51,947 nucleotides of DNA from Oscillospiraceae bacterium (GTDB taxonomy: Bacteria > Bacillota > Clostridia > Oscillospirales > Acutalibacteraceae): assembly GCA_015066465.1 (NCBI GenBank), contig SVOI01000011.1:1-51947 (forward strand), written 5' to 3'. The notes under the pieces were generated by a model that was given only the letters and a program-made list of their open reading frames with translations, had not been told where the DNA came from and searched no databases. How positions within the stretch are numbered: the first letter of the stretch is position 1; each line of letters opens with the position of its first letter. The position numbers and the translations under genes are program-made. This document shows, in pieces, positions 39,574 to 48,474 of this stretch.

Positions 39574-39918
39574 ATGAATCAGTTATTTGTAAAACTTAAA
39601 GAAGCTGAATGTGACGTTGAGGGTGCATTAGCACGTTTTCTTGATGATGAGGATTTATACGTTCAGTTTTATGGTGAACTCCTTAAAGATGAAGCATTTA
39701 ATAATTTAGGTGTTGCTTTAGAAGAAGGCAGACTTTATGAAGCTTTTGAGTTTGCTCATACTTTAAAAGGTATAATAGGCAATATGGGTCTTACACCGAT
39801 GTTCAATGTTGTTTGTGATATTGTTGAGCCTTTGAGAATAAATTCAGCAGAGGGTGTAAGTGAAAAATATCAGGAGCTCTTAGAATTAAGAGAACAATTC
39901 TCCGGATTTATTGAGTAA
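39574..39918 (+). CDS. Stand-alone HPt (histidine phosphotransfer) domain protein
   Basis: A 114-residue helical protein. The phosphorylatable histidine lies in FEFAHTLKGIIGNMGLTPM (compare the HPt consensus AHxLKGxxxxLG), at about residue 62. The remaining helices fit a four-helix bundle. HPt proteins relay phosphate between response-regulator receiver domains. No histidine kinase or receiver domain is encoded in the window, so its partners are elsewhere. Eleven bases separate it from the two-helix membrane protein gene. The aromatic operon promoter follows after 5 bases, with no terminator in between. Confidence 0.8.
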   Translation: MNQLFVKLKEAECDVEGALARFLDDEDLYVQFYGELLKDEAFNNLGVALEEGRLYEAFEFAHTLKGIIGNMGLTPMFNVVCDIVEPLRINSAEGVSEKYQELLELREQFSGFIE

Positions 39919-39923
39919 ATTAC

Positions 39924-39952
39924 TTGACAAATAAAATATATAGGTATATAAT
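39924..39952 (+). promoter_or_regulatory. Consensus promoter of the aromatic amino acid operon
   Basis: TTGACA (39924-39929), exactly 17-base spacer, TATAAT (39947-39952). Every position matches the sigma-A consensus. The transcript start is expected near 39959, giving a leader of about 210 bases before the first enzyme gene. Confidence 0.9.
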
Positions 39953-39997
39953 GCCAATATAAATTTTGTATGTATTATTTTTCAGGAGGTTATGTAG

Positions 39998-40063
39998 ATG
40001 ATTCGCAATTTTAAAATTCGATTTTTTTACTTTATAAGCGCGGATTGTCTATGTGCCGAGTAA
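39998..40063 (+). CDS. Phe-rich leader peptide of the aromatic operon attenuator
   Basis: A 21-codon reading frame (ATG 39998, TAA 40061-40063) too short for routine gene calling. AGGAGG (39984-39989) is placed 8 bases before the ATG. Phe is at position 5, and Phe-Phe-Tyr-Phe at residues 9-12 (codons TTT TTT TAC TTT, 40022-40033). Five of the 21 residues are Phe or Tyr. It sits between a perfect promoter and an intrinsic terminator in front of a phenylalanine-pathway operon, the position of classic leader peptides such as pheL. Its likely function is to let ribosome stalling on scarce Phe-tRNA decide which RNA hairpin forms; the peptide itself is presumably discarded. No database comparison was possible. 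Confidence 0.82.
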   Translation: MIRNFKIRFFYFISADCLCAE

Positions 40064-40140
40064 AAGCGTTAAGCTTTTCTGAGTGTGTAGTCAATCTGCA
40101 TTTCTGTTGTATTTTTATACAATGGTTGTGCAGATTTTTT
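39998..40140 (+). promoter_or_regulatory. Three-state transcription attenuator (segments 1:2, 2:3, 3:4)
   Basis: Segment 1 ATGATTCGC (39998-40006) can pair with segment 2 GCGGATTGT (40040-40048): nine pairs including three G-U. Segment 2 GCGGATTG (40040-40047) can instead pair with segment 3 CAATCTGC (40092-40099): eight pairs, one G-U. That pairing is extended by 40049-40056 with 40083-40090 and an inner hairpin AAAAGC/GCTTTT (40062-40067/40073-40078). Segment 3 AATCTGCA (40093-40100) alternatively pairs with segment 4 TGCAGATT (40129-40136) to form the terminator. A ribosome stalled at Phe9/Phe10 leaves segment 2 free, favouring the antiterminator. A ribosome reaching the stop codon covers segment 2, favouring termination. 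Confidence 0.8.
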
Positions 40141-40157
40141 ATTTTTTATTATATTTT
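40093..40157 (+). terminator. Attenuator terminator of the aromatic operon
   Basis: The outer stem AATCTGCA/TGCAGATT (40093-40100/40129-40136) and inner stem TTGTAT-TTTT-ATACAA (40107-40112/40117-40122) are followed by a long T-rich tract (40135-40157). It lies before, not after, a gene, as expected for a regulated terminator. Confidence 0.85.
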
Positions 40158-40170
40158 TAGGAGTTTGTTT

Positions 40171-41358
40171 ATGATTTCAGAAAAAATGATGAGCTTAGGT
40201 AAAAAAAGTTCGGTAATTCGTGGGATTTTTGAGTATGGTAAAAAAAGAAAGGCAGAAATAGGCGCAGAAAACGTTTTCGATTTTAGCCTCGGTAACCCAA
40301 GTGTACCAGCACCAAAAGAAGTAACAGAAATTATGAAAGAATTTTTAGAAACTGTTCCTGCAGAAGTTCTTCACGGTTATACATCAGGCCCTGGTGATAT
40401 CGGCGTAAGAACTGAAATTGCAAATTACATAAATAATAAATTCAAAGTAGAAGCTTCTGCTAATCTTATTTATATGACCTGTGGTGCGGCGGCGTCTTTA
40501 ACAATTTCTTTAAATGCAATAGTAAATAGTGGCGATGAAGCTATAGTTTTAGCACCATTTTTCCCTGAATACAGAGTCTTTGCAGAACAAGCAGGTGCTA
40601 CATTAAAGGTTGTTCCTTGTAAAAAAGAGGATTTACAAATTGACTTTGTAGCTTTAGAAAAAGCAATTACAAATAAAACAAAAGCAATTATTGTGAATTC
40701 ACCAAATAACCCATCTGGCGTTATTATTCCTGAATGCGATATCATTAAGCTTTCCGAGCTTTTAAACAACAAGCAAGAAGAATATGGTACTGATATCTAT
40801 CTTTTAGCAGATGAACCATACAGAGAGCTTGTTTTCACAGGTGAAGAAGTTCCATATATACCAAAGTATTATGATAACACAATTGTTTGTTATTCATACA
40901 GTAAAGCACTTTCATTACCTGGTGAAAGAATTGGTTATATCTTTGTTTCACCAAAAGTAACTGATTGTGGCGATGTTTATGCTGCAGTTTGTGGCGCTGG
41001 CAGAGCTTTAGGTTACGTTTGTGCTCCAAGTTTAATGCAATATACAATAGCAAAATGCTTAGATAAAACTGCTGACGTCAGCATTTATGAAGCTAACAGA
41101 AAAATGCTTTATGATGCACTTACAGAATACGGCTACACAGTTATAAAACCAGATGGTGCATTTTATATGTTTGTAAAGTCACCAGTAGAGGATGCAAATG
41201 AATTCTGTGAAATGGCTAAAAAATATGAATTGTTATTAGTTCCAAGTGATGACTTTGGTGTTAATGGCTTTGTGAGAATTTCTTACTGTGTTTCACCAGA
41301 ACAAATTGAGAATTCATTACCAGCATTCAAGAAATTAATTGAGGAATATAAAAAATGA
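40171..41358 (+). CDS. Class I/II PLP-dependent aminotransferase, probably aromatic or prephenate-directed
   Basis: A 395-residue fold-type I aminotransferase. NSPNNPSGVI, LLADEPYRELVF and the PLP lysine in CYSYSKALSLPGERIGYIF are the core motifs; DFSLGNPSVPAPKEV is typical of AspB-like clostridial enzymes. As first gene of the shikimate/Phe operon it most likely transaminates phenylpyruvate (or prephenate) to give phenylalanine (or arogenate); the choice cannot be read from sequence. ATG at 40171 is used because AGGAG is 7 bases upstream. A longer open frame reaching back to 40045 would run through the attenuator terminator and is not credible. It overlaps pheA by 4 bases. Confidence 0.87.
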   Translation: MISEKMMSLGKKSSVIRGIFEYGKKRKAEIGAENVFDFSLGNPSVPAPKEVTEIMKEFLETVPAEVLHGYTSGPGDIGVRTEIANYINNKFKVEASANLIYMTCGAAASLTISLNAIVNSGDEAIVLAPFFPEYRVFAEQAGATLKVVPCKKEDLQIDFVALEKAITNKTKAIIVNSPNNPSGVIIPECDIIKLSELLNNKQEEYGTDIYLLADEPYRELVFTGEEVPYIPKYYDNTIVCYSYSKALSLPGERIGYIFVSPKVTDCGDVYAAVCGAGRALGYVCAPSLMQYTIAKCLDKTADVSIYEANRKMLYDALTEYGYTVIKPDGAFYMFVKSPVEDANEFCEMAKKYELLLVPSDDFGVNGFVRISYCVSPEQIENSLPAFKKLIEEYKK

Positions 41359-42455
41359 GCGACATTAATGAATTACAACAAGCAAGAGAAATAATCAACG
41401 ATGTTGATAAGCAAATAGCAGTATTGTTTGAGAAAAGAATGAATGCTGCAAAGATGGTTGCCGATTATAAAAAGAAAAATGGGCTTCCTGTTGAGGACCT
41501 CGATAGAGAAAAAGCATTGGTTGAAAAAATGCTTCCGTTAATAGAAAACGAAGAACTTAAAAGCTATTACATCGGCTTTATGAATAACACTATGGAGATT
41601 TCTAAAGCCTATCAAAGAAGGCTCCTCGACGGAATGAAGGTTGCTTTTTCAGGTGTTAAAGGTGCCTTTGCTGATATAGCAGTTAAAAGAATATTCCCTT
41701 ACGCTGAAAGAGTATCTTACAAGAATTTCAAAGCGGCTTATAAGGCAGTTGAAAATGGTGAATGTGACTGCGCAGTTTTACCTATTGAAAACAGTTACGA
41801 AGGCGACGTCGGTCAGGTAATGGACTTAACATATTTCGGTTCATTATATATAAACGGCATTTTCGATTTACCGGTAGAACAAAATCTTTTCGGTACTAAA
41901 GATGCCCATATAAATGACATCAAGTCAGTAATAAGTCATAAACAAGCTTTAGGTCAGTGTGCAGAGTATATTAATGAACACGGCTTTGAAACAATTGAAG
42001 AGGTTAACACCGCAGTAGCCGCTAAAAAAGTGTTTGAATTAAACGATAAAACACAAGCTGTTATTTGCAGTATTGAAGCTGGTGAAGAATACGGCTTGAA
42101 GCTTCTTGATAGAAAAATCAATAAAAACAGTACAAATACAACACGCTTTGCAGTTTTCTCAAGAGTTCAGCGTGATGTTTCACCTAAGAGTGATACAAAC
42201 TTTATTCTTTTATTTACAGTTAAGGATGAAGCGGGTTCACTCGGTAAAGCAATTTCTGTTTTTGGAGAAAGTGGTTACAACTTAAAAACTCTTAAAAGCA
42301 GACCTTCAAAAGATGTTATATGGAATTATTACTTCTTTGTTGAGGGTGAAGGTAAGCTCACAAAAGAAGCAGAAGATGAGCTTATAAAATCACTTTCAGG
42401 CGTATGTACTAATGTGCGTCTTGTAGGTAAATTTACAAAAGAAATGAGAATTTAA
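41355..42455 (+). CDS. pheA: Bifunctional chorismate mutase / prephenate dehydratase
   Basis: A 366-residue enzyme that takes chorismate through prephenate to phenylpyruvate. An AroQ-type chorismate mutase domain spans 1-90 (LQQAREIINDVDKQIAVLFEKRM, Arg and Lys active-site residues). The prephenate dehydratase domain covers about 95-275, with the TRF motif in STNTTRFAVFSR. A C-terminal ACT domain covers 285-366 (DEAGSLGKAISVFGESGYNLKTLKSRPSK). In the ACT domain the Phe-binding ESRP motif of well-studied homologues reads KSRP here. ATGA overlap with the aminotransferase gene. Confidence 0.95.
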   Translation: MSDINELQQAREIINDVDKQIAVLFEKRMNAAKMVADYKKKNGLPVEDLDREKALVEKMLPLIENEELKSYYIGFMNNTMEISKAYQRRLLDGMKVAFSGVKGAFADIAVKRIFPYAERVSYKNFKAAYKAVENGECDCAVLPIENSYEGDVGQVMDLTYFGSLYINGIFDLPVEQNLFGTKDAHINDIKSVISHKQALGQCAEYINEHGFETIEEVNTAVAAKKVFELNDKTQAVICSIEAGEEYGLKLLDRKINKNSTNTTRFAVFSRVQRDVSPKSDTNFILLFTVKDEAGSLGKAISVFGESGYNLKTLKSRPSKDVIWNYYFFVEGEGKLTKEAEDELIKSLSGVCTNVRLVGKFTKEMRI

Positions 42456-42461
42456 GGTTTT

Positions 42462-43469
42462 ATGATTATAAATGTAAAAACAGAGAGTGGCAGTTACGAT
42501 ATTACGTTAAAACGAAATGCCATTAATGAAGTAAGTAGCATTCTTGATATAAAAGGTAAAGCACTTATCGTTACCGATAGTGGCGTGCCAGAGGAGTATT
42601 CAAAAATTGTTGCAAGTCAGATTAAAAATAGTGTTATTTACACCTTCCCACAAGGTGAACAGAGCAAAAATTTTGAGACGTATTCTGCACTTTTGAAAAC
42701 ACTTGCTGAGAATAATTTTGACAGAAGCGATTGTGTAATTGCAGTCGGCGGTGGCGTTACGGGTGATATGGCTGGGTTTACTGCCGCTACATATATGCGT
42801 GGTATTAAGTTTTACAATATCCCAACAACACTTCTTTCTCAGGTCGATTCTTCCATAGGCGGTAAAACTGCAATAGACTTTTTAGGCTATAAAAATTTAG
42901 TTGGTGCGTTTTATCAACCGAATGCAGTAATAATTGACCCTGATGCTTTAAAAACGTTACCTAAAAGGCATTTTAATAACGGACTTTGTGAAAGTATTAA
43001 AATGGCTGCAACTTCAGACTCTGAACTTTTTAAATTGTTAGAAGAAAACAATGCAGAAGATATAATTGATACAGTAATCGAAAAATCACTTCTTATAAAA
43101 AAACAAGTGGTTGAAGAGGATGAAAAAGAAACAGGGCTTCGTAAGGTTCTCAATTTCGGTCATACAATAGGTCACGCCATTGAAACAGTTACTGGTCTTG
43201 AGGAGCTTTACCACGGTGAATGTGTAGCACTTGGTATGATGTTTATGGCAAGTGGTGAAGCGAAAGAGAGAATTAAAAATCTTCTTACTAAAAACAATTT
43301 ACCAACTGAAACTGATTTTAACGTTGAAGCAGTCTATGAAGCATTACATCACGATAAGAAAAGTGCTGGTAGTGGTGTAAACGTGGTTACAGTTAAAAGT
43401 ATAGGCGAATTCGAGTTCAAATTTTTAGAATACAATGAAATTTATAAAATTCTGAAAGGGGAGAAATAA
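42462..43469 (+). CDS. aroB: 3-dehydroquinate synthase
   Basis: A 335-residue NAD- and metal-dependent enzyme that converts DAHP to 3-dehydroquinate (shikimate step 2). VIAVGGGVTGDMAGFTAATYMRGI and TTLLSQVDSSIGGKTAIDF are the signatures. Metal ligands are expected in the Glu after NGLCESIK and the histidines in FGHTIGHAIE and LYHGECVALGM. Six bases after pheA; the stop is directly followed by aroC. Confidence 0.96.
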   Translation: MIINVKTESGSYDITLKRNAINEVSSILDIKGKALIVTDSGVPEEYSKIVASQIKNSVIYTFPQGEQSKNFETYSALLKTLAENNFDRSDCVIAVGGGVTGDMAGFTAATYMRGIKFYNIPTTLLSQVDSSIGGKTAIDFLGYKNLVGAFYQPNAVIIDPDALKTLPKRHFNNGLCESIKMAATSDSELFKLLEENNAEDIIDTVIEKSLLIKKQVVEEDEKETGLRKVLNFGHTIGHAIETVTGLEELYHGECVALGMMFMASGEAKERIKNLLTKNNLPTETDFNVEAVYEALHHDKKSAGSGVNVVTVKSIGEFEFKFLEYNEIYKILKGEK

Positions 43470-44558
43470 ATGAAAAACACATTCGGCAACAGTGTTGCAT
43501 TGACAGTTTTCGGTGAGAGTCACGGCAATATGATAGGTGCTGTAATTGACGGTTTGCCAGCTGGTATTACTGTAAACGAAGATTTTATTTCTCATCAGTT
43601 GGATTTAAGAAGACCTTATGGTAAAATCTCAACTCCCCGACACGAAGCAGATAAATTTGAGATAGTAAGTGGTGTTTTTAATAATAAAACAACTGGAACA
43701 CCCATTTGCATTGTAATTCCTAACGAAAACACAAAATCTAAAGATTACAACTACGGTATAGCAAGACCAGGTCACGCTGATTTCACAGCATTCAGTAAAT
43801 ATAACGGCTTTGAAGATTATCGTGGTGGCGGTCACTTCAGTGGCAGAATAACTGCAGGGTTAGTAGCAAGTGGTGCTATTGCAATCTCAGCTTTAGAGAA
43901 AAAAGGAATTAAAATAGGCACACATATTAAAAAATGTGCTAATGTTGAAGATGCAGACTTCGGTGATTATATTAAAGATACAAATGAATTAAACAATAAG
44001 CTTTTTGCCGTTTTAGATGATAAAAAAGGCGAAGAGATGATTAAAAAAATAGAAGCTGCTGCATCACAGAATGATAGTGTCGGCGGTGTTTTAGAAACTG
44101 TTGTTACAGGGCTTCCAGCAGGAATTGGTGAGCCTTGGTTCGATTCAGTTGAAAGTATGCTTTCACACGCTCTTTTCTCTGTTCCTGCAGTCAAAGGCGT
44201 TGAATTTGGTGCAGGCTTTAATTGTGTCGATATGCTCGGTAGCGAGATGAACGATGCATTCTTTTATGATGGAGATACTGTCGGGACCATAACTAATAAC
44301 AATGGTGGTATAAACGGTGGTATAACAAATGGAATGCCTGTTATATTCAGATGTGCCATTAAGCCTACTCCTACAATCAGCAAAGAGCAGAATACAATAA
44401 ATTTCGTAACAAACGAAAATATTAAAACTGAAATTCATGGCAGACATGACCCGTGCATTGTTCACAGAGCAAGAGTTGTTGTTGATAGTGTAACAGCCCT
44501 CGTTCTTTGTGATTTGCTTTCACAGAAATTCGGTACAGATTGGCTTGGTGAAAAGTAA
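43470..44558 (+). CDS. aroC: Chorismate synthase
   Basis: A 362-residue FMN-dependent enzyme that makes chorismate from EPSP (step 7). GESHGNMIGAVIDGLPAG (N-terminal signature), RPGHADFTAFSKYNGFEDYRGGGHFSGRITAG and the C-terminal RHDPCIVHRARVVVDS are all present. No spacer to aroB, and it shares one base with aroE-aroK. Confidence 0.97.
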   Translation: MKNTFGNSVALTVFGESHGNMIGAVIDGLPAGITVNEDFISHQLDLRRPYGKISTPRHEADKFEIVSGVFNNKTTGTPICIVIPNENTKSKDYNYGIARPGHADFTAFSKYNGFEDYRGGGHFSGRITAGLVASGAIAISALEKKGIKIGTHIKKCANVEDADFGDYIKDTNELNNKLFAVLDDKKGEEMIKKIEAAASQNDSVGGVLETVVTGLPAGIGEPWFDSVESMLSHALFSVPAVKGVEFGAGFNCVDMLGSEMNDAFFYDGDTVGTITNNNGGINGGITNGMPVIFRCAIKPTPTISKEQNTINFVTNENIKTEIHGRHDPCIVHRARVVVDSVTALVLCDLLSQKFGTDWLGEK

Positions 44559-45793
44559 TGGAATATGGTTGCATAGGCGAAAAATTAGCCCATAGCTTTT
44601 CTAAAGAAATACATAACGCTTTAACCGATTATCAGTATGAGTTAAAAGAACTCGCAAAAGATGAAGTTGATGTCTTTATGACTGAGCATAACTTTAAAGC
44701 GATAAACGTTACAATTCCATATAAACAAACTGTTATACCTTTCCTCGATTTTATTGCAGATGAAGCAAAAGAAATTGGTGCAGTAAATACAGTTGTAAAT
44801 AAAGCTGGTAAGCTTTTTGGCTATAATACAGATTTTTTCGGTATGAAAAGTCTTATTGAAAGAACAGGCATTGTAGTAGAAAATAAAACTGTTGCAATTT
44901 TAGGCGGTGGTGGTACTGCAAAAACTGCTGAAGCTGTGTCAAAGTCTTTGGGTGCAAAAACGATTTATAAAGTATCAAGAAGCAGTAAAGAAAGCTTTAT
45001 TACTTACGATGAGCTTTATAATATAAGTGATACGATAGACGTAATTATCAACACAACACCAGTAGGTATGTACCCGAATATATATGAATCAGCCGTAGAA
45101 ATTGAAAGGTTTAAAAATCTTTCTGGTGTAGTTGATGCAGTATATAACCCTCTTCGCTCAAAACTCGTTTCTGATGCTCTTAACAGAAATATCAAAGCGG
45201 TCGGCGGTCTTTATATGCTCGTAGCACAGGCGGCTTTTGCAGTTGAATATTTTATAGATATAAAAATCGAAAAAGATAAAATAGAGGATGTATTCAATAC
45301 ACTCTTTAAGAAAAAAGAAAACATTGTCTTAATAGGTATGCCGTCATCCGGCAAATCTACAGTAGGCAATATTCTTTCTAAAAAATTAAAAAGAGAGTTT
45401 TTTGACAGTGATTTACTTGTAGCAGAAACTGAAAATATGACTATTCCCGATATTTTTGAGAGTAAGGGTGAAGCATATTTCAGAAATGCTGAAACAGAAG
45501 CAATTTTTACTCTTTCAAAAAACAATTCTTCTGTAATATCAACTGGTGGCGGTGCTGTTTTAAATAAAAAGAATATTGAACTTTTAAAAGAAAACGGCAA
45601 AGTGTTCTTTTTAGACAGACCATTAGAAATGCTTATAACAACAAGTGACAGACCGCTCTCATCAAATAAAAGCGATTTAGAAAAGCGATATAACGAAAGA
45701 TATGATTTATATAAAGCTTCTGCTGATATAAAAATAGATGCAAGTGGTACAGTTGAAGACGTAATAAACCAGATTATGAAGGTGACAGAATGA
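44558..45793 (+). CDS. aroE-aroK: Fused shikimate dehydrogenase - shikimate kinase
   Basis: A 411-residue two-domain enzyme for steps 4 and 5. Residues 1-250 are shikimate dehydrogenase: GEKLAHSFSKEIHN (substrate site), the catalytic Lys in NVTIPYKQ, Asp in NTDFFGM, the NADP-binding VAILGGGGTAKTA, and Gln in LYMLVAQAAFAVEYF. Residues 265-411 are shikimate kinase: Walker A GMPSSGKSTVG, the shikimate-binding Asp in FFDSDLLV, STGGGAVL, and lid arginines RPLSSNK/EKRYNERY. Both active sites look intact. It overlaps aroC by 1 base and aroQ by 4. Confidence 0.95.
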   Translation: MEYGCIGEKLAHSFSKEIHNALTDYQYELKELAKDEVDVFMTEHNFKAINVTIPYKQTVIPFLDFIADEAKEIGAVNTVVNKAGKLFGYNTDFFGMKSLIERTGIVVENKTVAILGGGGTAKTAEAVSKSLGAKTIYKVSRSSKESFITYDELYNISDTIDVIINTTPVGMYPNIYESAVEIERFKNLSGVVDAVYNPLRSKLVSDALNRNIKAVGGLYMLVAQAAFAVEYFIDIKIEKDKIEDVFNTLFKKKENIVLIGMPSSGKSTVGNILSKKLKREFFDSDLLVAETENMTIPDIFESKGEAYFRNAETEAIFTLSKNNSSVISTGGGAVLNKKNIELLKENGKVFFLDRPLEMLITTSDRPLSSNKSDLEKRYNERYDLYKASADIKIDASGTVEDVINQIMKVTE

Positions 45794-46221
45794 AAATCCT
45801 TGTTATTAATGGACCAAATATTAATATGTTGGGCGTACGTGAGCCTGAGATTTATGGCAAAGAAACATATATAAATCTTGTTGAGAAAATAGAGAAATAT
45901 GCAAAAGAAAACTGGGTAGAGGTAAAGTGCTTCCAGTCAAATCACGAAGGTGATATTATTGACGAAATCCAGAAAGCATATAAAAACTTTGATGGTATTG
46001 TAATAAATCCTGCCGCGTATACTCATACAAGCGTTGCAATACTTGATGCTTTGAAAGCGGTTTCAATTCCAACAGTTGAAGTGCATATTTCAGAGGTTTC
46101 AGAGCGTGAAGCATTTAGACAAATAAGCTTTGTACGTGAATATGCTTTTAAAACTATCACAGGTCACGGCACAGATGGTTATTTAGAAGCAATAGATGCT
46201 TTACTTGGAGAATTAAGATAA
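45790..46221 (+). CDS. aroQ: Type II 3-dehydroquinate dehydratase
   Basis: A 143-residue dodecamer-forming enzyme for step 3. ILVINGPNINMLGVREPEIYG holds the catalytic Asn/Arg/Tyr region. FQSNHEGDIID, NPAAYTHTSVAILDAL (catalytic His) and VEVHISEVSEREAFRQ follow the family pattern. Normal length. It overlaps aroE-aroK by 4 bases and aroA by 1. Confidence 0.96.
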   Translation: MKILVINGPNINMLGVREPEIYGKETYINLVEKIEKYAKENWVEVKCFQSNHEGDIIDEIQKAYKNFDGIVINPAAYTHTSVAILDALKAVSIPTVEVHISEVSEREAFRQISFVREYAFKTITGHGTDGYLEAIDALLGELR

Positions 46222-47429
46222 TGATTGCAGAAATTTATAAAAGTAAAGCAAATGGTGAAATAGTTGCACGTTCTTCTAAAAGCTATATGCATCGTGCATT
46301 AATCGGTGCAGCACTTTCAGATGGCGAAACTGTTATTGAAAATATAGCTGAGTCAGAAGATATAACAGCAACTACAAAATGCCTTGAAGCTCTTGGTGCT
46401 GAAATTTACATTTCTGGTACAACACTCAGGGTTAAAGGTGCACCACCCAAAAGTAAATTAAAAAATCTTTCTCTTTTTGCAAATGAAAGTGGTAGTACGT
46501 TACGATTTTTAATTCCGGTTTCATTATTATATAGTGAGTCAGTTGAATTTACTGGTAGCAAAAGGCTTTTAGAAAGACCACAAACAGTTTATGAAGAATT
46601 ATTTCCAAGGAAAAATTGCTTTATAAAAAGAAGTGAAAAAAGTATTTCTGTCGGCGGAAATTTAACTGGTGGCGTTTATGAATGTAAGGGTAATATAAGC
46701 AGTCAGTTTTTAACAGGACTTCTATTTACCTTGCCTCTTTTAAATGAGAATAGTGAAATAAAACTTACGACACCTTTACAAAGCTCCCCATATATTGACT
46801 TAACCTTAGAAATTTTAAATGAGTTTGGAATTAATATTGAAAGACCAGATGACAGAACGTTTAAAATAAAAGGTAATCAAAAATTTAAAGCAACAAAGCT
46901 TTATTGTGAGGGTGATTGGTCAAACTCTGCATTTTTAGAGGCGTTCAATTTAATCGGCGGTAACGTTAACGTCGGTGGCTTAAATATAAACAGTACACAA
47001 GGTGACAAAATATATAGAGAATATTTTGAAAACTTAAAGCAGGGTACACCCGTTTTAGATATTACAGATTGCCCCGATTTAGCACCGATTTTAATGACTA
47101 TGGCTACACTTTTAAATGGTGTTGTTTTAAAGGGTACAAGTCGTCTTAAAATAAAAGAAAGTGACCGTGGAGAAGTAATGAAAAATGAACTTTCAAAATT
47201 TTCTGCCGATATTACTGTTCTTGAAGATGAAATAATAATAAAAAAAGCAGATTTAAAAACGCCAACCGAAAATCTTTGTGGTAATAACGACCACAGAATT
47301 GCTATGTCACTTACAGTAATTTCAAGTGCTTTCGGTGGTGTTGTAGAAAATGCAGAATGTGTTAATAAAAGTTACCCGTTATTTTTTGAGGATTGCGAGA
47401 AACTTGGTATAAAAATTAAATTAAAATGA
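46221..47429 (+). CDS. aroA: 3-phosphoshikimate 1-carboxyvinyltransferase (EPSP synthase)
   Basis: A 402-residue enzyme that joins shikimate-3-phosphate and PEP (step 6). SKSYMHRALIGAAL is the N-terminal substrate motif, GNISSQFLTGLLFTLPLL is the mid-domain motif, and RLKIKESDRGEVMKNEL contains the catalytic Asp/Glu-Ser-Asp-Arg region. The PEP-site loop reads NESGSTLRFLIP, which differs from the NAGTAMRPL form of classical enterobacterial enzymes. Slightly shorter than the usual 420-430 residues. Confidence 0.94.
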   Translation: MIAEIYKSKANGEIVARSSKSYMHRALIGAALSDGETVIENIAESEDITATTKCLEALGAEIYISGTTLRVKGAPPKSKLKNLSLFANESGSTLRFLIPVSLLYSESVEFTGSKRLLERPQTVYEELFPRKNCFIKRSEKSISVGGNLTGGVYECKGNISSQFLTGLLFTLPLLNENSEIKLTTPLQSSPYIDLTLEILNEFGINIERPDDRTFKIKGNQKFKATKLYCEGDWSNSAFLEAFNLIGGNVNVGGLNINSTQGDKIYREYFENLKQGTPVLDITDCPDLAPILMTMATLLNGVVLKGTSRLKIKESDRGEVMKNELSKFSADITVLEDEIIIKKADLKTPTENLCGNNDHRIAMSLTVISSAFGGVVENAECVNKSYPLFFEDCEKLGIKIKLK

Positions 47430-47445: not shown

Positions 47446-48474
47446 ATGAGTATGAATTTCAAAGGGAAATTACCAATCCCACAAGAAGTAAAGGAAAGAT
47501 TTCCTTTAACAAAAGAAATGGCAGAACAAAAGGCTAAAAATGACGAAGAAATTAAAAAGGTTTTTTCTGGCGAGTCAGATAAATTCCTTCTCGTAATTGG
47601 TCCTTGCTCTGCTGACTATAAAGATGCAGTATTAGATTACATTCACAGACTTCGTGAGGTTCAGGAAAAGGTAAAAGATAAAATCTTTATTATTCCAAGA
47701 ATTTACACAAATAAGCCAAGAACAACAGGCGACGGCTACAAAGGTATGGTTCACCAGCCAAATCCAGACAAAGAGCCAGATATGTATGAGGGTATTGTTG
47801 CAATTCGTGATATACATATGTCAGCATTAAAAGAAACAGGCTTCTCTTGTGCAGATGAAATGCTCTACCCAGATAACTACCGTTATCTTTCAGATGTTCT
47901 TTCTTACGTTGCTATTGGTGCAAGAAGTGTTGAAAATCAACAACACCGTCTTGCTGCAAGTGGTCTTGAAGTGCCGGTTGGTATGAAAAACCCTACAAGT
48001 GGTGATTTATCAATTATGATGAATGCAATTACAGCAGCTCAGCACAAGCATACATTCATTTATCGTGGTTGGGAAGTAACAAGTGACGGCAACCCTTATG
48101 CACACGCTATTATGCGTGGATTTGTTGACAGAGATGGTCACTCAATTTCTAACTATCACTATGAAGATTTACAGAAATTAAGCGATTTATATGCGGCTTC
48201 TGGTCTTACAAATCCTGCTGCAATTATTGACGTAAACCATGCAAACTCTGGTAAAAAATATCTTGAGCAAATAAGAATTACAAAAGACGTTCTTTACAGT
48301 ATGGCACACAATAATGACATCAAAAAGCTCGTTAAAGGCTTGATGATTGAAAGCTATATTGAAGACGGCGCACAAAAAATAGGCGAAAATATTTATGGTA
48401 AATCAATCACAGACCCATGTCTTGGTTGGGAAAAAACCGAAAAACTTATTTACGATATTGCAGAATATTTATAA
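47446..48474 (+). CDS. aroF: 3-deoxy-D-arabino-heptulosonate-7-phosphate (DAHP) synthase, AroG-type
   Basis: A 342-residue type I-alpha DAHP synthase, the first committed step (PEP + erythrose-4-phosphate). VIGPCSADYKDAVLDYIHRL, PRIYTNKPRTTGDGYKGMVHQP, GARSVENQQHRLAASGLEVPVGMKNPTSGD and the metal His/Asp in IIDVNHANSGKK are family motifs. The AroG-type N-terminal extension is short. The sequence suggests an AroF/AroG/AroH-like enzyme, but which amino acid inhibits it cannot be read. Last gene of the operon, 16 bases after aroA, with GGAAG upstream of the ATG. The symbol aroF is generic. Confidence 0.93.
   Translation: MSMNFKGKLPIPQEVKERFPLTKEMAEQKAKNDEEIKKVFSGESDKFLLVIGPCSADYKDAVLDYIHRLREVQEKVKDKIFIIPRIYTNKPRTTGDGYKGMVHQPNPDKEPDMYEGIVAIRDIHMSALKETGFSCADEMLYPDNYRYLSDVLSYVAIGARSVENQQHRLAASGLEVPVGMKNPTSGDLSIMMNAITAAQHKHTFIYRGWEVTSDGNPYAHAIMRGFVDRDGHSISNYHYEDLQKLSDLYAASGLTNPAAIIDVNHANSGKKYLEQIRITKDVLYSMAHNNDIKKLVKGLMIESYIEDGAQKIGENIYGKSITDPCLGWEKTEKLIYDIAEYL

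Follow-up and report, generated by a model that had tools for sequence, protein, structure and literature searches.

What controls transcription of the phenylalanine and shikimate operon at this locus? The window, the whole stretch of 51,947 nt that was analysed, has a promoter, a short reading frame rich in aromatic codons and a terminator-like hairpin upstream of this operon, and a sequence-only reading had interpreted these elements as a ribosome-mediated phenylalanine attenuator. As judged from the DNA and from its relatives, the leader is very probably a ribosome-mediated transcription attenuator that senses charged tRNAPhe and charged tRNATyr.

Leader, terminator and operon

The promoter (TTGACA-17-TATAAT, 39924..39952; this and the other leader and operon features given below are on the forward strand) had been called perfect and does match the consensus at 12 of 12 positions. 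It is followed by a Shine-Dalgarno (SD) sequence, AGGAGG (39984..39989), and by a leader peptide frame of 21 codons plus a stop codon (MIRNFKIRFFYFISADCLCAE, 39998..40063). The putative control codons, Phe-Phe-Tyr-Phe, are codons 9-12 (40022..40033) and a CGA Arg codon (40019..40021) is positioned immediately 5′ of this aromatic run. The 21-codon frame, the strong SD and the Phe-Phe-Tyr-Phe sequence are thus all present as predicted.

Three alternative helices can be drawn within the leader RNA. Segment 1 (39988..40006), which overlaps the end of the SD, the start codon and the first codons of the frame, forms 18 base pairs with segment 2 (40040..40057) in helix 1:2 (39988-40006 with 40040-40057). 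Segment 2 also pairs with segment 3 (40084..40100), giving the 15 pairs and one mismatch of helix 2:3 (40040-40055 with 40084-40099), and segment 3 pairs with segment 4 (40129-40136), giving the 8 pairs of helix 3:4 (40093-40100 with 40129-40136). All three pairings had been proposed and prove to be exactly positioned, with 1:2 and 2:3 being longer than claimed. Helix 3:4 is part of a hairpin (40093-40136; -20 kcal/mol) that is followed by T-rich sequence, and segment 3, the loop, segment 4 and the T tract together constitute the intrinsic terminator (40093..40142) that had been recognized in front of the first gene. A simple terminator scan called no terminator at this hairpin. The free leader RNA is predicted to fold 4.75 standard deviations below dinucleotide shuffles, with none of 200 shuffles as good. 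These parts are directly observed, as is their exclusivity; the three helices are mutually exclusive, with the antiterminator (2:3) and the terminator as alternatives, and the terminator, with its U tract, is located 5′ of the first gene as expected for an attenuator.

The first gene of the operon (40171..41358) encodes a PLP-dependent aminotransferase (PF00155, NF005305). It is followed by pheA (41355..42455), encoding a protein with chorismate mutase, prephenate dehydratase and ACT domains (PF01817, PF00800, PF01842), aroB (42462..43469; TIGR01357), aroC (43470..44558; TIGR00033), an aroE-aroK fusion (44558..45793; PF08501 plus PF01202), aroQ, encoding a type II dehydroquinase (45790..46221; TIGR01088), aroA, encoding EPSP synthase (46221..47429; PF00275, with TIGR01356 aroA as the best NCBIfam match at 270 bits, cut-off 287), and a gene for a DAHP synthase of the aroF/G/H type (47446..48474; TIGR00034). 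The description of this as a complete shikimate operon was correct: Pfam and NCBIfam assign every step of the shikimate pathway and of phenylalanine synthesis. The gene aroA, whose transcript had been suggested previously as a readout, is the seventh of the operon, and the first is the aminotransferase gene. In the source genome, tyrA is on a different contig. A small Hpt-like protein (PF01627, slightly below the cut-off) is encoded at 39574-39918, a region whose end adjoins the promoter, and such a protein neighbours the operon in three of the 20 examined regions, those of the closest relatives.

Conservation and distribution of the leader

The PheA of the source operon was searched for in 60 related genomes, and longer regions were examined for 20 of the 21 near-full-length matches (G024 was left out). 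The leader was apparent at once in 17 of the 20, and also in G008 where it is located further upstream; it was not found in the longer regions from G036 and G059. The 80 loci then taken from a PheA alignment, the best 80 of 511 relatives, come mostly from MAGs with the label Clostridia or Oscillospiraceae, ruminant gut being the source of many. The leader unit is present in 62 of these best 80. Sixty of them, the source leader and sequences from four further genomes make up a 65-row alignment (A3), whereas the terminators of L070 and L083 were missed by the terminator search and these two loci, both with near relatives in the alignment, were recovered by the covariance model. Three more of the 80 loci have another F/Y-rich leader, three (L113, L128, L129) have too little upstream sequence, and 12 lack the leader (L067, L089, L091, L092, L096, L105, L114, L115, L120, L123, L126, L131). 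Among these 12 there are weak, uncounted model matches in L131 (E 2.4e-4), L114 (0.007) and L123 (0.03), and a short RFYYC frame is visible in L123. Seven loci (L096, L112, L114, L120, L122, L123, L125) were left out of the alignment by judgement. Upstream of pheA, L112, L122 and L125 have an F-rich frame of a different type (e.g. ..NYFSFTFARFYAGF..), accompanied in L112 and L125 by a terminator-like hairpin of -18 kcal/mol.

Selection of the alignment rows required an SD, richness in F/Y and a terminator, so that these features are present by construction, but the rows were unselected for helix 1:2, helix 2:3 or phase. The distance from the start codon to segment 2 is 35, 38, 41, 44, 47 or 50 nt, with one exception of 39 nt, and so a single phase is maintained in 64 of the 65 leaders, a sign, at the level of sequence, that this short SD-preceded frame is translated. 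Frame lengths range from 18 to 29 codons across relatives, and in 61 of 65 leaders there are 5 or 8 nt between the end of the final F/Y codon and segment 2. Within windows placed on the cluster, and picked on frame 0, F and Y account for 379 of 520 codons in frame 0, which has no stop codon, and for 103 and 93 codons in the other frames. An SD-preceded short frame with at least four F/Y in eight codons is present in 66 of the 77 operon-upstream regions that are long enough, out of the 80 loci, whereas dinucleotide shuffles average 3.4 and the reverse strand has 3; for at least five F/Y, the values are 61 of 77, 0.8 and 2, respectively. As 31 of 2,000 shuffles of the source leader alone also reach five F/Y, it is the conservation that carries most weight. 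The best promoter matches the consensus at 10 or more of 12 positions before all 61 of the leaders given (of the 65 aligned), with 7.5% for mononucleotide shuffles.

The 1,434 post-start codons of the 65 leaders include 260 for Phe and 231 for Tyr but none for Trp. The control codons are therefore Phe and Tyr alike, and the earlier designation as a phenylalanine attenuator holds for the presence of Phe codons but not for Phe as the only amino acid. A codon cluster for the product amino acid thus precedes the pheA-shikimate operon. In all 28 places where Arg is encoded immediately 5′ of an aromatic codon that is itself followed by a further aromatic codon or by Met, CGA is used (27 of them in the core and one in the tail of L069), a count inflated by shared descent; elsewhere, CGA occurs at 7 of the 44 remaining Arg codons of the leaders and at 174 of 3,223 (5.4%) in the aro genes of the same loci. 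One idea is that CGA may be a slow codon that times the ribosome, and the fixed position of this codon makes codon-timed attenuation testable.

With 18 sequences aligned, 81.8%, 85.8% and 95.8% of the cells in helices 1:2, 2:3 and 3:4, respectively, are paired, versus 30-53% in slid controls for 1:2 and maxima of 41% and 52% for 2:3 and 3:4. With all 65 sequences the values are 60.9%, 77.5% and 94.4%, versus a maximum of 51% for 1:2, 32-38% for 2:3 and 27-44% for 3:4, the structure having been drawn from the source leader, which favours it over the slid versions. In the 65 sequences, double-sided changes occur at 14 of the 15 pairs of helix 2:3, a result above all 500 shuffles, a control that is weakened by the relatedness of the sequences. 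The number of doubly changed pairs in helix 1:2 is not above that of the shuffles, 207 of 500 of which reach it. In 62 of 65 leaders, however, segment 1 fits the segment 2 of that leader better than the median swap does, and in 48 of 65 the native combination of these two segments exceeds 95% of mononucleotide shuffles. The protector helix 1:2 is present in the source leader and near relatives and is weak in distant relatives. The unit is conserved, in that the reading frame, the promoter and helices 2:3 and 3:4 are maintained, with compensatory changes. Lack of conservation of the frame or pairings in close relatives had been named beforehand as an outcome that would refute attenuation, and the opposite was found.

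A covariance model of the leader (R1), which also provides an annotation handle, has matches in 16 of 22 same-genus genomes. Fifteen are strong and come from exactly the 15 genomes with a PheA of at least 62% identity, with no match of that strength in the other seven same-genus genomes; G019 has one weak, stray match without the PheA-operon context. The weak genus match L196 has no match to the operon's genes nearby. At the level of the order there are matches in 31 of 295 genomes. The 30 inspected are all located directly upstream of aminotransferase-pheA, aroF-pheA, aroF or pheA-aroB, so that, among inspected order matches, the link to aroF/pheA-type operons is an observation; those in G000, G050, G054 and G058 were training sequences and others may be. 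Matches were obtained in 14 of 391 genomes at the level of the class, with four new places (L170-L173) preceding aroF or pheA. Six weak class matches (L175-L180), with none of the operon's genes nearby, look like chance; L177 has a short frame containing F.

Proposed mechanism and alternatives

From these parts, we infer the site of transcription initiation, ribosome stalling, the switch itself, the tRNA ligands and the response to their charging. RNA polymerase would start ~40 nt 5′ of the leader start codon and a ribosome would load early. With little charged tRNAPhe or tRNATyr, the ribosome would stall within codons 9-12, block helix 1:2 and leave segment 2 largely free to pair with segment 3, and this antiterminator would let RNA polymerase proceed into the operon. 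If charged tRNA of both kinds is available, the ribosome would reach the stop codon (40061-40063) and cover segment 2, helix 3:4 would form and transcription would end near 40142. If there is no translation, helix 1:2 would form, burying some of the SD and start codon of the leader itself, and because of this helix the untranslated RNA would terminate too.

Folding under ribosome constraints, proposed earlier as a check, was undertaken in two ways. In calculations that gave the ribosome a 31-nt footprint and let the RNA pair across it, the antiterminator is favoured when the stall is at codons 1-8 but the terminator when it is at codons 9-12 or beyond, as helix 1:2 closes around a ribosome positioned at codons 9-11. 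With such pairing forbidden, the predicted terminator probability for the source leader is 0.55 at the first Phe codon of the run, 0.57 at the second, 0.76 at the Tyr codon, 0.91 at the last Phe codon and 0.92 at the stop codon. Sixty of the 65 leaders favour the terminator at the stop codon, and 31 fall below 0.5 at some codon of the cluster; as five of these 31 are also below 0.5 at the stop codon, the full switch is obtained in 26 of 65. In the folding calculations, the upper part of helix 2:3 is compatible with helix 3:4. The geometry of stalling and release is appropriate, with 5 or 8 nt between the end of the F/Y codons and segment 2, but equilibrium folding shifts only in part and so the check gave the expected direction while reproducing the switch incompletely. 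Given this modest size, kinetic or steric effects would have to account for most of the switch, provided that the model holds.

A different mechanism with the same frame would be nascent-peptide arrest, for which TnaC is the model, with free Phe, Tyr or another aromatic compound as the ligand rather than codon starvation as the signal. There is a peptide core, RF[YF]Y or FYFYYF and then often D-C, that can be recognized over many loci as this requires, but the D-C codons fall within segment 2 and are accounted for by RNA pairing, F and Y are variable in both number and order, and the stop codon is at varying distances. The core Arg is also missing from 38 of the 65 leaders and, where present, it is the codon rather than the residue that is fixed. 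Arrest is consequently very unlikely. It is highly improbable that the frame encodes a functional small protein and that the hairpin is a constitutive, leaky terminator. A conserved frame of 18-29 codons would fit such a protein, but the visible conserved residues are those of the control codons and pairing segments, the competing helices 1:2 and 2:3 are conserved, with compensatory changes in 2:3, and all 30 of the inspected order matches have the element immediately before an operon of the aroF/pheA type.

The absence of a T-box from the leader, noted in the sequence-only reading, was confirmed, as no Rfam family, including RF00230, reaches the gathering score in the window. At E values up to 10, there is no Phe_leader match in 39850-40250. 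The permissive Rfam matches at the source leader look like chance. Rfam gave six matches in the loci of 14 relatives, none at the leader, and only tRNAs in 15 divergent or leaderless loci. With T-boxes in all 22 same-genus genomes and seven matches in the source genome, the action of a T-box, riboswitch or RNA-binding protein on a leader with an incidental short frame might be imagined, but is scarcely credible given that no Rfam family reaches the gathering score here, that none matches at the leader in the 14 relatives, that the permissive matches have the appearance of chance and that the coding signal is phase-locked. As T-boxes are so widespread in these genomes, the attenuator is not there for want of them.

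A T-box binds tRNA directly and does not need translation. It resembles the attenuator in that tRNA charging controls termination, and differs in this direct binding, whereas the leader, from which a T-box is absent, is proposed to sense charging via translation. In the source genome, a T-box (L197, C50:4692-4921) precedes pheS and has UUC at what is presumably the specifier site, placed with the aid of a legend in PMC5794164. Two charging sensors, a leader peptide for the operon and a T-box for pheS, thus seem to serve the same amino acid.

Related attenuators and transporter leaders

The pheL-pheA attenuator of E. coli, represented in Rfam by the proteobacterial Phe_leader family, has a Phe-rich leader peptide, three alternative helices and a terminator before pheA. 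The leader described here resembles it in the Phe-rich peptide, the three helices and the intrinsic terminator, but has Tyr codons nearly as often as Phe codons and no such Rfam match. In contrast to the E. coli attenuator, the control codons are within the loop of helix 1:2, and this helix overlaps the SD and start codon of the leader. One published survey reportedly described 224 RNA motifs, and an earlier description of this family there is possible. Literature searches of article texts revealed no published account of this attenuator family. The type of mechanism is already known, and upstream ORFs coding for Phe, or for Phe and Tyr, have been proposed earlier in front of shikimate genes. 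The legend of Fig. 6b in PMC6429828 has a pair of candidate upstream ORFs, containing F and Y and linked to shikimate genes, from five genomes including Clostridium novyi; by description, these are similar in F and Y codons and in the associated genes. Similarly, in PMC8632094, uORFC-13-1 is a Phe-coding upstream ORF adjoining a terminator ahead of aroF, as here, but its 24 representatives are from Acholeplasma and environmental sequences only, and precede aroF only. His leader peptides (PMC2965389, PMC9413887) and a Leu attenuator in Staphylococcus aureus (PMC5794164) have been described in Bacillota. They share leader-peptide attenuation with the system here but serve other amino acids and genes, in Bacilli, Erysipelotrichales and some Eubacteriales. 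For Actinobacteria, the corresponding part of PMC1262725 reports no Phe element. The earlier comparison with proteobacterial logic is supported, with the amendment that leader-peptide attenuators were already described in Bacillota.

The new details are the invariant CGA Arg codon and a similar leader, a candidate attenuator, in front of a TrpX-like transporter. The latter came from the class-level search: the leaders MKRRFFYYYYYYFSPAVECCAANI (L174) and MKNRFYFYYYYFRDAAKRCTADTL (L181) are located 5′ of a gene for an ABC_sub_bind substrate-binding protein, for which TrpX is the sole NCBIfam match and is below the cut-off. These leaders (L174 1501-1669, L181 1501-1661) are from two genomes of another family and have Phe/Tyr runs in their leader peptides; their hairpins were judged by eye only. 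The presence of a similar leader suggests an aromatic substrate for the transporter.

Phe/Tyr leader-peptide attenuation would then be a conserved system in uncultured gut Clostridia, a group in which such switches have rarely been described. More tentatively, these leaders may constitute a dual Phe/Tyr attenuator family of the gut Clostridia with a design of its own that has also been adopted upstream of a transporter for aromatic amino acids. The control codons, looped out by a 1:2 helix that also closes the leader's start site, would make each leader a one-shot sensor, and the invariant, rare CGA would be a programmed pause for ribosome and polymerase timing. This extended reading is possible but doubtful.

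In G019 (L204, C4:60248-61545), a T-box at C4:60248-60479 is located ~200 nt before the gene for a protein at C4:60682 that belongs to the Pfam family of the L174 and L181 substrate-binding protein. With a leader peptide and a T-box preceding proteins of the same Pfam family, two types of sensor may serve related transporters. A T-box in the source genome (L201, C64:19813-22500) precedes a gene that, by eye, looks to be of the phenylacetate-CoA ligase type, together with an ACT-type protein.
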